Part shown: positions 34,567-61,217 of the stretch, one piece after another
Layout of the letters: each line of letters starts with the position of its first letter
Numbering within the stretch: position 1 is the stretch's first letter
Assembly: GCF_037975245.1 (NCBI RefSeq)
Contig: NC_092581.1
Span: forward strand, 17,661,303 to 17,725,302
DNA: 64,000 nt
Reading direction: 5' to 3'
From: Apostichopus japonicus
Taxonomy: Eukaryota; Echinodermata; Holothuroidea; Aspidochirotida; Stichopodidae
Position numbers and translations under genes: made by a program
Notes under the pieces: model-generated
The model's database searches: none
What the model was told of the DNA's origin: nothing
Seen by the model: only the letters and a program-made list of their open reading frames with translations

Positions 34567-35230
34567 GTTTACAAGTCATTACATACGTTCTTTCTTCCTT
34601 AGAAGCTGGTTCCCTTTGCAATTTCCATTATTGAAAAGTTTCTGTAACCAAATGAAAATATGAAACTCCTTTCTTGTAACATATTACTACGGAATGACAT
34701 AATTTTCATAAATAATGTATGTTTCTAATCTCAGTGACTAAATTAATTGGTGGTTATTAATTCTTGATAATTTTAAACATTTACAAAGTGAAAACTTGTA
34801 TAGGTCTTAAATAACGACAAGTCTGTTTATAAGATATTTTGAATGAACGAAAAAGAATTTGTTGAAATATTTTTTGCTTCTTGATCATTATTAAATTTCC
34901 ATTGATAAACTTTCACAAGGGATGTGAATTTTCTAGGATATTTTATTGATTCATTTTTTTTTTAAATTATAGTATCTTCCACAGCTTTTATGCAAATTTC
35001 TTTTAATTTTGTTTTTTATTCAGTAATTATAAAACATAAGTCAGCAATATGATGCTATTTACATCCACCTACTTAAATTGTATATAGAAGACAGTAAGTT
35101 TGTGAGAATTTGTTTGCAAGAATAAAATATTGGAAACAGTGCAAAATATATCTTTTTTCGTCTTATATTTCGAAGTACAATATCCCACACCCAGCACAAA
35201 GTCAATTCTTCAAGACACCATAAAGTACTA

Positions 35231-35412
35231 CTTTTTAAGAAAAAGTCGGCCAGGAAAGAACCTGGGCACGAAAACCGAACGATTGATCCGCTCTCAACCC
35301 CAGTCCCATTGCATCGGGACTGTGACTGTGTGTTCATCGTCGGGTGTTCATCACCATTCCCCTCGAAAGGGAACAGATAACTACACATGATCTTAGCCAA
35401 AAGGCAGAGAAG
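35231..35412 (-). mobile_element. U2-snRNA-headed SINE-like retroposon, full copy
   Basis: Read on the minus strand, the element begins CTTCTCTGCCTTTTGGCTAA and continues GATCATGTGTAGTTATCTG. This matches the first ~42 nt of U2 snRNA with two substitutions and one inserted T, the insertion falling in the branch-point recognition segment GUAGUA. After this the sequence is unrelated to U2. It includes the hairpin CAGTCCCGATGCAATGGGACTG region near 35301-35322 and a second stem around CCAGGTTCTTTCCTGG, and ends TTTTTCTTAAAAAG. The insert is bounded by the exact 13-bp direct repeat CCATAAAGTACTA at 35218-35230 and 35413-35425. It is therefore a retroposed, snRNA-headed element and not a working U2 gene. 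Confidence 0.85.
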
Positions 35413-35539
35413 CCATAAAGTACTAGTTAGTGGCTCATAGACAATGACACTGGTTGGAGTGGCAGGGGGAAGGAGTGGTTTTAATTGTTCAGTAGTGTTG
35501 AAATGAATGTTTGTGATGCAAGGGGGGGGGGTAGGCATG

Positions 35540-43408: not shown

Positions 43409-46400
43409 GAATTTCCACCTGTACTCCAAAACTAAGTATTATGAGACAAAAGCAGAGAAATAAGCTATGACTCATAATTGAAGAATAGGAAGAACGTTCA
43501 TCCTATTCTTTGCTCCTTAATCCGCATCCGGTATAGACATTGTTTTTTGGTGCTGATTCCATCAGTGCTACGCACACTTATCTAGCATTCATTTTTACAT
43601 TTTGTACTTTTCATTTCACTGCCAAAGTCATGCTGACAAAGGTCCCAGGGGAACAAATATGCCAATATAGTTTCTAAAACAGTACTCCCTATTTGCCAAT
43701 TATGAGCCATACCTTATTTCTTTGCTTTTGTCTAATACTATATATAAATATATATATATATATATTTGTGTATATGTTGTGTGTGTGCATGTGCAAAGGA
43801 AACAGATTTCTCACCTTCGTACTGATGGTGAGACCCAGCTGATCGATTTGGACCACCGTGACTGGTAATGGGTGCTTGGAGATTAGAGCTAGTCCTCTTC
43901 CTACTGTCGGCACAGGAGGTCCTCTTACTATGTTGATCTTGTTGACGTTGCAACATGGCAGCCCGTTTACTGATATTTGTCCCAGAGTCACTACTAGTCC
44001 TCCATCTAGGAACTGTATGGTACTTTTTCAGTTTATTTTGTTCTGGTCCTGTGTCCCTGTTGGGGGGTACTATCCTGAAATTAGCAGTGAGTCTCGGATT
44101 TGATTCCGCCAGACTCTGATCAGATGCAGCCCTTCTCATCACCCCTCTCCCTCGAGGTTCAGGACTAGCTTCCCTTGAGTGCAAACAAGTCCTGACTTTG
44201 TTCCACAATTGATTAATCTCTTCGTCCGTAGGGGTCTTGTTCAAGGTGAAACCGTTCATCCTTTTAGGGGTGAACTTGGCCAACTCACTCTTACCTGAGG
44301 GTGGCTTACCCATTGGGGGAGTTGAATGATTTCTACTATTCACAACAGACTTGGCTTCATTTTTAGATTGCACATGAGAGGCTGACTTGCCATTCTGGTT
44401 ACCAAATTTAGACCTGAATGTATTTCGAGAAACTGATGCAGTACCATTGCTGTTGGTCTGTTCCATGTCATTCGAGGCTGCTAGTTTTTGCTGAACAATC
44501 CTCGCATTAGTCGCGGGGGTTTTCTGTGTCTCTGTCGCGCTTTTGGCTTCGAGGCCGACGGTTTTACCGCTCTGGACATCTTTATGAGAACCACCTGAAT
44601 AATCAGAGTGAGCCAAATCCGTCCAGCGGACAGATTTCTTGGAGGGAGTCCTTTTGATTTGAGTTGCACTGGCTATATCCATGCTGTCTCGTAATTCGTT
44701 CTTTCCCCAATGTGTGCTCGGAGTATCCTCCTGATGCTGATTGATATTGACAGAATACTTTGAAGTCTTCTTCAAGATGCTTTTCGGTGAAGTCATGTCT
44801 AAGTCACTATTACTACTACCTTCTTCACAATTCCTTTGTAAAGGCTTGCCTCCTTGTTTTGTAACAGCCTTATTCAGTGGCTGTCCTCTGTCGTTGTCCA
44901 TCCTCTTTGTCAATTTTTGGTTCGCTGTGACAGAAACAAGCGGAGTTGCTGACGTCTTAGTAGAGAAACCTCTCGTTTTATTATCGCCATGGTATCTCTG
45001 GGAAGTTTGAGAGTCTGCGGTGGCCTGCGGGGAGCTTCTTTTCGATGAAGCAGTATTTTCTGCTTTAGCCGTGCTATGATCCCACACGTGGGATTGAATG
45101 TTAAGACGGTTGCTTTCTTGAGCGGTCAATGTTGCTACATGAGAAGAATGACTCTCCGATTGGAAATGACTAGTCTGAGAGTCACTCTCATTTTCAGTGG
45201 GCTGAGTAGATGAATATTGACTGTAATGGAGAGAGTTCTGTCCATAGTCCTGATTCTGATAAGGATGACCTTCTGAAGTAGGGTGACTTAATGAAAACGG
45301 TCCATTAACGACGTTACCTGTGAGGGACGTGTTTCTTTCAACTGGTTGATGCTGCTCACTCTGGTGGTAATTCATATTTTCTTGCAAATGTCCAGATCGT
45401 ACTCCATTAGTTGTACTCTGGAAAGTACGGCCACCGATCTGACCGACTTCATTTACACCGTCTAAACTGTCTTGGTCATCAAAAGTCAATTTTCTAGAGG
45501 TGGGTTTCTTCCCCTCCTCTAAGCTGTCCAGACTCGACACACTACTGCAATCGAGCTCCACGTTCTTGCTGGCCGATCCCTGTCGCAGTGCCTGATTGAA
45601 TTCCATGAGGGACTTCTTTTGTTGTTCAATAAATAATCTCTGTTGATTTACTAGTTCCTGTTGGATATCCCTGGGATGGTGCTGCTGTTGTACCACTGGT
45701 GATGCTGGAGTATCGTGGGTAGTCGTTGCATGTGTCGTATACCCATGGTATTTCTGGTGATACGTTTGATCAGGGCCTCGTTTGATTGCGTTCCCATTCC
45801 TGTCCAGACTGGACACTTCCCTACTCAGCTGCTCCCCTCTGAAACCAGAATGATTGTCAGAGGTGATTGGGGGCTGAGTGTAACCAGAAGAGGGTGGGTT
45901 TTCCTGGTGTCCTACCATTCTGAGAACATCCTCCATGGCTGGGCTAGGCTTGCCTGAAATGTTAAAACATGTCATTATTACAAGTTCTATCCCTTGTCAA
46001 GAATGCAGAATGAGGTAGAGAAAAACTCAGCAGAACAATTTTCTTATGAAAAACTTGATGTTACATGTTATGAAAATGGCTGTTTACCAATTAAAACATA
46101 TGTGTTTTACATTTCACATTAGTTCTTGCAATAATGATCATCTTTTAAGATTACGATAGTAAATAGTCTGCTGAAATGATAGGAATACAAATTATATGGA
46201 AGGTTTATATACACACCTGATGTATCATTGAATTTGTAACCTTTAGCCATCTGTACCCCTTCCTGGAGTCTAGGACCAGAGTACACTGCATCTTTAAGAA
46301 AATAAAGGTCTAGGAATTAAAAGACTTGAGAAAGAACTGTTTGCTACTATGAACATTTTAGGTATTTGTGAAGTTGCTAAATATGTTTCTTAACATGTTT

Positions 46401-49710: not shown

Positions 49711-52700
49711 TTAGTATTCATCATCAGAGCTCTGCTCTGCGGCATCAGCTGAATCAATTCCAACCTCTTCATAATCCTTCTCCAGAGCAGCCATGTCCTC
49801 CCTGGCCTCTGCGAACTCCCCTTCCTCCATACCCTCACCCACATACCAATGAACAAACGCCCGCTTAGCGTACATCAGGTCAAATTTATAATCGAGACGA
49901 GCCCAGGCCTCAGCAATGGCGGTGGTGTTACTCAACATACAGACTGCACGCTGGACCTTGGCGAGGTCGCCACCTGGTACCACGGTTGGTGGTTGGTAGT
50001 TGATGCCGACCTTGAAACCAGTTGGACACCAGTCAACAAACTGGATGTTACGCCTCGTCTTTATAGACGCCACTGCTTCGTTGACATTCTTAGGGACGAC
50101 GTCACCACGATACAAAAGACAGCAAGACATGTACTTGCCATGACGGGGATCACATTTCACCATCTGATTGGCGGGTTCGAAACATGCTGTTGTTATCTCA
50201 GCTACAGTAAGCTGTTCATGGTAGGCCTTCTCTGCAGAAATAACAGGGGCGTAGGTAGCCAGGGGGAAATGAATACGAGGGTATGGTACCAGGTTAGTCT
50301 GGAACTCAGTGAGATCTACATTGAGAGCGCCGTCGAATCGCAGGGAAGCGGTAATGGAGGAAACGACCTGAGCAATGAGCCTATTGAGGTTTTCATAACT
50401 TGGGCGTTCAATGTCCAGGTTTCTTCTACAGAGATCATAAATGGCCTCGTTGTCGACCATGAATGAGCAATCGGTGTGTTCCAGTGTGGTGTGGGTAGTC
50501 AAGATGGCATTATATGGTTCCACGACGGCTGTAGAGACCTGAGGGGCCGGGTAGATCGAGAACTCCAACTTGGACTTTTTGCCATAGTCAACAGAGAGGC
50601 GTTCCATCAGAAGGGCGTTAAAGCCGGAACCTGTTCCTCCCCCAAAACTGTGAAAGATGAGAAACCCTTGAAGACCAACACATTGATCTGACTGAAATGA
50701 AACAGAAACGGGAAAACACGTTGAGATCATTAAAGGTAGGTCCAACGGAAATGTAGTTATATAACACTTTTCCATTAGCAAATCTTATCGATCGCAAATA
50801 TCTTTGCCTCTTTGAAGGGGGGGGGGGCTTAAGTTGCTCCAAACTTTCAGTCCTTAATCATCTACAACCATCGCTCATTAAGGTTGGTCAAGGACATATA
50901 ATTCGGTTCACATATTATGTAAACTGGACTCAGACTTATGCATGACACTGAGTTGTCTGGGCCATATAGGTCACCAAAGAATAGCCGAAAACCCATGTAG
51001 AATGTACACGGCGAAAGATGTCTACGTGCTTTTAAAGAATACCATATATACGGGCATACCGTATTGAAAAGTTTCTGTGATAGGCATACGTTATGAAGTT
51101 GGGCATGAAAATTTAAACGATTTACATGTCCTTTTTCATTTCCCACTGTTACATTTACAGGAGATGATGTTGAGAGGGTCCAGGGGGTGGGCTCATTTAT
51201 GGCCCTGGTCATATTCTTGTGCTGATGATTCCTTGCTAAGTAGTACCGTTGTTTGGTTTCAGTGTAACCTTTTATTGATTACTCACCAATTTCCTTATTC
51301 GATCCAGCACTTGATCGATGATCTCTCTTCCTACGGTGTAATGTCCTCTGGCGTAGTTATTGGCGGCGTCCTCTTTCCCTGTGATCATTTGTTCAGGGTG
51401 GAATAGTTGTTTGTATCTGCCCATTCGGATTACATCTGAAACAGATAAAGGTCAGCTTTGGGTCAAGTTCACGAACTATCTATGCTCCTATAGATAGAAC
51501 AAGTACGAAATAGTTTTAATAAGGAAAAGAAATGTCTATATTGACAGCGGAAATGTATCACAAGTCGATTTAATTAGTTGTAGTACCCAAAAGCCAACAA
51601 TTAGCCCCATCAATTTGCCACAGTTACATGTTGTTGGATTCGATGCCAAAAAACAACTAAAAAAACAAGTGAAATGTGCAATAATACAAAGCACAGTCCC
51701 ATGATATGTAACACCCAAATTTCCCATACAGTTACCGGTCATTATCCACTTTAGTGGCAGAATATGCTTTACAGTGTATAGAAGTATATATCTTTCCGCA
51801 CAACTACAATGATCTAACACATGATATCTGCACCCATACACCCACCCACCTTCCCAGATTGAACACTCTAGTCCCCCCGTGGTTGCGTATTTGGGTGCAA
51901 GCTCTGCATTAAAAACAATAACATGTATTAATAGGATTAGCATTAACATACATACATAGGCCTTCATACATGCATACAGACATACTCATACATACATACA
52001 TACATCCATAACAAAAGTCTAACATTTAAGAAATTATCGGCCTTTTTGTTAATGTCATTGTTCTAACCTACAACTGTTGGCTCTAAATCCACGAATATAG
52101 CCCGTGGAACGTGTTTCCCCGTGCTCGTCTCGCTGAAGAAAGTATTGTAGGCGTTACATTCCTTTCCAGGAGTATTGTCCCCTAACATGGTACCGTTTGG
52201 CTGGATATCATGCTCCTGACAGTAGAGTTCCCAGCACGAATGACCCATCTGAACTCCGGCCTGGCCGACGTGGATCGAGATACACTCACGCTGTTGATTA
52301 GAACAACACACAATTCATTTGACGTATTTATTTGACGAAACTTTACAGAATACAACATATTATGTTATCATGGCTATACTAACCCCGAATTACATATATC
52401 TAGACATGTTTCCTTATGTGCCACTTTCGAAAAACCACATAACAGAAAGTGCGGCAATTCCATTATATACCACTTTTTAGAGATATTCTAGTGCAGTGGC
52501 GAAGCTAGGGGGTCAAGGGAGGGCACGTGCCCGGGCGCCGGGTTTAGGGGGCACTGAAATGGGAGAATGAGCTGAGTAAAAAAAAATAAGCACCTTTTAG
52601 AAAAACATGACGAAATTGATGTATGTCGTCAGGCATGAATATTTTCCAGTTACTAATAAGAATCTGAACTGAATGTAGTTGTTTTTATTAGCACTATCGA

Positions 52701-56947: not shown

Positions 56948-61217
<4,270 letters not shown>

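Follow-up and report, generated by a model that had tools for sequence, protein, structure and literature searches.

A U2-headed retroposon of the sea cucumber Apostichopus japonicus, SINE-like in form, that also resides in U2 snRNA genes

Introduction

A family of short retroposons in the sea cucumber Apostichopus japonicus begins with the 5' end of U2 snRNA, is dispersed over the genome and occurs in addition inside U2 genes, where it uses the target of the Keno-like LINEs that live in these genes. The element is a SINE in form and dispersal only, since a simple scan for an internal Pol III promoter gave no box match better than shuffles. Judging from sequence comparisons, this non-autonomous retroposon is likely to have its source copies inside U2 genes; the promoter of these genes would drive their transcription, and a Keno-like LINE would mobilise the product.

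In general, the heads of SINEs are accounted for by the internal Pol III promoter that comes with them. The U2 gene is transcribed by Pol II from an external promoter, so that dispersed copies should gain no drive from a U2 head, and snRNA-headed SINEs are a puzzle for this reason. In the assembly studied here a likely source is visible in the form of interrupted U2 genes, LINEs at the same site and identical dispersed copies, and the origin of snRNA-headed SINEs becomes testable via RNA ends.

The copy in the window

The window, which is the whole analysed stretch of 64,000 nucleotides, contains one copy of the element (Table 1). According to the original prediction, made from the letters alone, it should be a SINE-like retroposon with U2 nt ~5-45 at the head of the minus strand, two hairpins, a fixed 3' end and a perfect 13-bp target-site duplication, and the analysis bears this out. 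Both copies of the duplication are present and frame the element, the head follows U2 nt 5-45 apart from a G-to-T substitution and one inserted T, both hairpins recur in the fold of the family consensus, and one 3' end is common to the copies. The motif TTGAGAG places the copy in class A, one of three large classes of the family, and its 8-bp-shorter body is shared with a minority of family copies. Because the join in U2 genes reads CTTAAAAAGTATCTG, the last AG of the terminal hairpin may correspond to U2 nt 35-36.

Table 1. Features of the U2-headed element in the window (window positions)
Feature	Position	Strand	Remark
Left 13-bp target-site duplication, CCATAAAGTACTA	35218..35230	.	exact match to 35413-35425
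U2-headed SINE, 182 bp, class A, body variant 8 bp shorter, without first 4 U2 bases	35231..35412	-	
Head, U2 nt 5-45 with one substitution and one extra T	35371..35412	-	
Body, ending in two hairpins and TTCTTAAAAAG	35231..35370	-	
Terminal hairpin, CTTTTTCTTAAAAAG	35231..35245	-	
Right 13-bp target-site duplication, CCATAAAGTACTA	35413..35425	.	direct reading

The extra T had been taken as the reason why the copy is not a working U2. It is indeed non-working, as only nt 5-45 are present, but the T itself does not belong to the family, the consensus being without it; among the copies read it occurs in the window copy and two others (L003, L086), and is thus a property of single copies. No similarity of the body to U2 or to U2-resident LINEs was found, and neither Rfam at gathering scores, which gave no U2, nor ARAGORN listed anything in the window. 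A fuller copy elsewhere (L111) scores 60.2 bits as U2 in Rfam against a cut-off of 46, and at an E value of 0.01 U2 alone was listed for L132, L144 and L111. Since such a copy passes the cut-off, SINE copies may be counted as snRNA genes, of which the assembly paper lists 1,088 (PMC10344927).

The minus strand of the window also carries two tubulin genes (49711-50781 and 56948-57844; Pfam Tubulin, Tubulin_C), and a 745-aa frame at 43738-45975 of the window has no Pfam match.

Size and structure of the family

In the genome searched (671,581,487 bp in 35 contigs), a similarity search with the element gave at least 45 matches on 20 contigs, with the best 40 of 2,103 first-look candidates scored. 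Exact-word counts gave 240 occurrences for a 26-mer from the tail and 755 for a 27-mer from the body, while the reversed-pattern controls gave 0 in both cases. A Lincoln-Petersen estimate over contigs C1-C3 (33 tails, 97 cores, 18 with both) puts the copy number at ~1,384 genome-wide, a very rough figure that the shared age of the two words makes an underestimate and tandem arrays inflate. At up to 190 bp each, this number of copies would exceed the 159,644 bp annotated as SINE in the assembly paper, so that most copies probably lie outside that annotation (PMC10344927). The element is ~190 bp long (182-193 bp) and non-coding; this leaves no room for reverse transcriptase and endonuclease, and the element is therefore at most a passenger.

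For the consensus, 45 aligned copies that lie closest to the window copy were used; it is identical to the host's U2 over nt 1-45 (45/45) and then diverges. It folds into a CCCAGG..CCTGGG hairpin and a terminal CTTTTT-CTT-AAAAAG hairpin. Altogether, 124 copies in 96 fetched loci were examined, and 34 of the 124 were scored as 5'-truncated by their late start in the query. A duplication accompanies 66 of the 116 copies with an intact 3' end (56 loci), as compared with 25 of 1,145 pairings (2%) when flanks were swapped; nine of these 66 rows stem from one palindromic repeat and several are tandem copies at one site, and the remaining 50 copies show no duplication by the criterion used. The genome search that had been proposed thus returned many dispersed copies sharing body and 3' end, with duplications of their own. 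The two outcomes named in advance as contrary to a SINE, namely a single copy or a confinement of all copies to tandem snRNA arrays without duplications, are both untrue. Some copies do lie in a tandem snRNA array, and it is these that tell most about the element.

Several loci display secondary multiplication. An inverted-arm repeat is present at L049, L050, L130 and L131 (C2:13.10, C3:25.41, C3:5.85 and C19:10.65 Mb), and there are more inverted pairs elsewhere; its arms are at least 1.5-1.7 kb long and 99.6-99.7% alike. Each arm carries one SINE with the same duplication, which indicates that the SINE was multiplied by another element. At L021, L048, L102, L002 and L108, SINE copies stand head to tail with an identical duplication between them, as if a regenerated site had been reused, and at L021 (~795-825) a palindrome, AAACTTTTTCTTAAAAAGTTT, is part of the target itself and includes the last 15 bases of the SINE.

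Target preference

From the 124 copies, 76 independent 3' flanks were kept. Those set aside were 14 paralogous flanks, 4 second copies in a locus, 8 copies lacking a 3' end, 9 lacking the tail motif and 13 whose flank contained SINE or U2 sequence. At +1 to +5 the flanks kept favour TATCT (T.97, A.96, T.70, C.51, T.49), although for 18 loci (L074-L091) the search pattern itself had dictated the bases at +1 and +2. Host U2 from nt 36 reads TATCTGTTC, with which this preference agrees; position +6 departs from U2 (T.45, G.08). Over +3 to +10 the flanks match U2 at 223 of 608 positions, as compared with 193.3 (sd 9.3) in same-base shuffles, a value that was reached in 5 of 5,000 shuffles, and the control count at +21 to +28 was 152.

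The tail is joined exactly to TATCTGTTC at 19 places genome-wide. Seven of them lie in the U2 array of contig C16, on the U2 strand, and eight have another SINE copy downstream (L073, L136-L139, L141-L143). One is situated in a decayed U2 copy on C20 (L144), and three are found elsewhere (L140, L145, L146), L145 and L146 being alike.

Copies inside U2 genes

The C16 array repeats with a spacing of 645 bp. By exact-word counts, 76 of 80 U2 3' halves and 56 of 60 U2 genes unbroken across the site are on C16, and hence 20 of the 76 units there are broken or altered at the site. In six of these 20 units (6/76 C16 units) the SINE body stands directly before U2 nt 35/36, three of the units being in L132 and one each in L133, L134 and L135. 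The unit in L134 holds two SINE copies in tandem, while that in L135 has its SINE behind the 3' end of a Keno-like LINE, where a second U2 35-53 leads into the truncated SINE body. The 5' junctions in the array are diverse: U2 runs to nt 45 and continues with CCTTAGGG or with CCCTCGGG, or runs to nt 53 and continues with a truncated body, and of two further junctions one reads CTGATCCCTTAGGG and the other has GTATC before a truncated body. Since they differ, the six units are not one insertion multiplied.

None of the six SINE-bearing array units has the head twice. Leaving aside the unit with the LINE, the remaining five show 0 mismatches to an intact unit in the 95 bp that precede U2. The C20 copy in L144 carries two heads; the idea that it had been retrocopied from the transcript of an interrupted U2 gene was given up, as its downstream flank resembles that of U2 genes on C15. 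Likewise, a descent of L141 from the array copy that is truncated in L134 was considered and set aside because the seams differ.

Body variants sort 123 aligned copies into class A (52), class B (25), class C (29) and others (17), with mean pairwise divergences of 6.4% for A, 3.0% for B and 2.4% for C. All six typable array bodies belong to class C, the least diverged of the three large classes; the body in L135 is too short for typing. A reading of class A as young was abandoned, given that the consensus had come from copies nearest the window copy and A is the most diverged large class. Three of the four comparable array bodies match seven dispersed copies, found on five contigs, without a difference over 136 bp, four of these seven being at loci fetched because they hold the U2 target, and the fourth array body differs by one base over the comparison. 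Moreover, the odd seam CCTTAGGG is present in two array copies as well as in five dispersed copies at three loci.

LINEs at the U2 site

In all six of its copies (6/6), a Keno-like LINE that resides in U2 genes is preceded by U2 1-50 and followed by U2 from nt 35 onward; its ORF1 contains a zinc knuckle, and its ORF2 comprises the domains Exo_endo_phos, RVT_1 and zf-RVT. Three further LINE families in array U2 genes are followed by U2 from nt 35 (two families) or nt 38 (one), and their 5' junctions are at nt 25, at nt 32, and at nt 30 or 45. Exo_endo_phos and RVT_1 occur in all three, in L148 over two frames. By site and endonuclease type, the U2-resident LINEs resemble Keno as it has been described (PMC4640811, PMC6136364).

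The U2 array at C16:30.999-31.170 Mb (L044, L147-L151) is shared by four LINE families. Another LINE lies at the start of a U2 gene in L045 (C16:31.041-31.046 Mb), where it encodes a 925-aa ORF2 with Exo_endo_phos_2 and RVT_1 and is flanked on either side by a repeat of ~22 bp from about -19 to +3. Upstream of the SINE copy in L051 (C7:5114900-5121500) there is an unrelated reverse-transcriptase-like reading frame, which by eye we take to resemble a Penelope-like element.

Comparison of 3' ends had been suggested as a route to the partner LINE, yet it yielded none. The U2-resident LINEs (L044, L045 and others) do not share the SINE body and do not visibly share its tail, and the tail had no match in 20 LINE 3' regions picked from 150 RVT_1 hits; in local alignments, two of these regions scored above the highest of 20 shuffles, by a single point. 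When the exact hairpin tail was sought with one base ruled out at every one of the seven positions ahead of it, one place came up, a duplicated SINE tail whose flank is shared with a nearby copy. A short tail lacking two of the SINE bases ahead of it was found at two places, both of them SINE copies.

Head and seams

An exact start at U2 nt 1 or 2 (ATCGC or TCGC) is seen in 22 of 44 tallied copies with a duplication, a tally that leaves out seven rows of one palindromic repeat; with these rows included, the figure had stood at an inflated 28 of 51. Seven more tallied copies have the full U2 start behind a few extra bases. Copies with a seam between TTTTC and GGG match U2 exactly up to nt 50. 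Among dispersed copies the commonest seams are CCTTTCGAGGGG (49), TTTTCGGG (19, including many copies of the palindromic repeat) and CCTTCGGG (8), none of which is present in the array copies read.

Variants shared at a level of at least 5% affect 1 of the 41 head columns (nt 5-45) and 11 of the 133 body columns, which is a weak difference. Rare variants per site are about equal in head (.0148) and body (.0121).

Proposed origin and its alternatives

The preferred reading, in which U2-resident copies are the source, would operate as follows. The body would insert at about U2 nt 35-53 by means of the LINE machinery of that site, and would then lie behind the unchanged upstream region and U2 nt 1-45/50 of a Pol II gene. 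The U2 promoter would yield an RNA that starts at U2 +1 and carries U2 1-45/50 into the body, and a LINE of the U2 site could reverse-transcribe this RNA at U2 or U2-like sites. Where the target is a U2 gene or an older head, the end of the cDNA may pair with the like target and leave one head, with L144 as the exception among the cases read. Elsewhere, at sites that resemble the U2 target weakly, the 5' end of U2 would travel with the body and look like the head of a SINE. The anatomy, the family, the duplications, the common target, the residence in U2 genes and the identity of resident with dispersed copies are observed, while the direction of transfer, the use of the promoter, the RNA ends and the partner LINE are inferred. 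As the commonest dispersed seams are missing from the array copies read, this sequence of events must invoke their loss by array turnover. Further points that weigh against it are the lack of the SINE tail in the LINEs compared, the weak difference between head and body in shared variants, the head change at nt 40 taken up below, the two heads of L144 and the 50 copies that gave no duplication. If it holds, a resident copy with a clean seam of U2 1-50 to GGGAATGG is to be expected in the U2 array, as are relics of resident class A and class B copies.

By a wider proposal, to which we give even chances, the element has neither promoter nor head of its own: each U2-resident source would borrow the promoter, the start and the first 45-50 bases anew, and snRNA-headed SINEs generally could be escaped inserts of snRNA genes.

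The most serious competitor is an ordinary SINE lineage that gained its U2 head once or a few times, when the reverse transcriptase of a LINE jumped from its template onto U2 snRNA, and that has since inherited this head from dispersed masters, U2 genes being mere landing sites of a U2-specific partner LINE. A head change at nt 40 is common to ten copies, which implies that heads can be passed on, and the lack of the commonest seams in the array copies read fits inheritance as well. Template jumps are on record, to U12 at R2 5' ends (PMC3414825) and to U6 and other RNAs with LINE-1 (PMC13174262). However, the dispersed copies would then be without an evident promoter, the 50-nt head ends just at the 5' junction of one Keno-like LINE (6/6 copies), and the array copies belong to the least diverged large class and retain an unchanged U2 upstream region. 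On balance, we regard such a lineage as rather unlikely, if still worth serious attention.

Far less probable is a Pol III SINE in which the head acts as the internal promoter. The head does contain an A-box-like stretch, TGGCTAAGATCA, that fits at 6 of 8 positions, but 73% of 500 shuffles reach this score and 99% of 500 reach the best B-box score of 6/10, so that a scan for simple matches revealed no box pair in the consensus better than shuffles. T runs tend to stop Pol III, and the consensus has three internal ones of 4-5 (nt 15, 150 and 180), which would count against such transcription, although SINE heads are usually Pol III promoters (PMC7245038). That the copies are plain U2 pseudogenes or an artefact of assembly, as the likeness of the head to U2 might suggest, is scarcely credible in view of a non-U2 body, one 3' end and individual duplications in copies on 20 contigs. 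We accordingly retain the reading of U2-resident source copies as the likely one.

Comparison with known systems

No published report of a SINE resident in U2 genes was found in the open-access literature. In outward form, the nearest known system is SINEU, reportedly described by Kojima in 2015 as SINEs with U1 or U2 snRNA heads in crocodilians; its heads are said to have been added recurrently, its movement is reportedly due to a LINE of the Tx1 group, and a Mariner element is said to be its preferred target. SINEU shares with the present element the U2-derived head, the lack of autonomy and the dispersal. It belongs to another animal group, whereas the sea cucumber element occurs also in U2 genes at a fixed site, and the two are likened by their heads and not by their bodies.

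In terms of the target, Keno and Utopia use the same U2 site (nt 35-39), but they encode their own machinery, which the SINE does not, and the SINE shares no sequence found with the U2-resident LINEs of this genome (PMC4640811, PMC6136364). R2, which is co-transcribed with 28S (PMC2718515), has short non-autonomous derivatives, SIDEs and R2/R1 hybrid SIDEs (PMC3414825). Like the present element, R2 SIDEs are short and non-autonomous, occupy within an RNA gene the position that a particular LINE targets, and depend on co-transcription. In contrast, they are internally deleted LINEs in 28S, while the SINE body matches no U2 LINE read among those still present in the array, and the SINE is dispersed in great number outside the gene. 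A 5' self-cleaving ribozyme is a further mark of R2 SIDEs; the Rfam listing at an E value of 0.01 for L132, L144 and L111 named U2 alone.

A further parallel is offered by melanogaster-type R1 elements outside 28S, which carry 7-28 bp of the 28S upstream flank into targets that often hold bases of the gene site; precise R1 junctions in 28S are ascribed there to pairing of the 28S flank with the target (PMC2718515). Here as there, a flank of the host gene would be carried to outside sites that resemble the gene site. In R1 this is a trait of the LINE itself, whereas the piece carried in the sea cucumber extends to the transcription start of the gene and forms the head of ~1,400 copies. By analogy, the element would work like an RNA-gene passenger of the R2/R1 type while it looks like SINEU.
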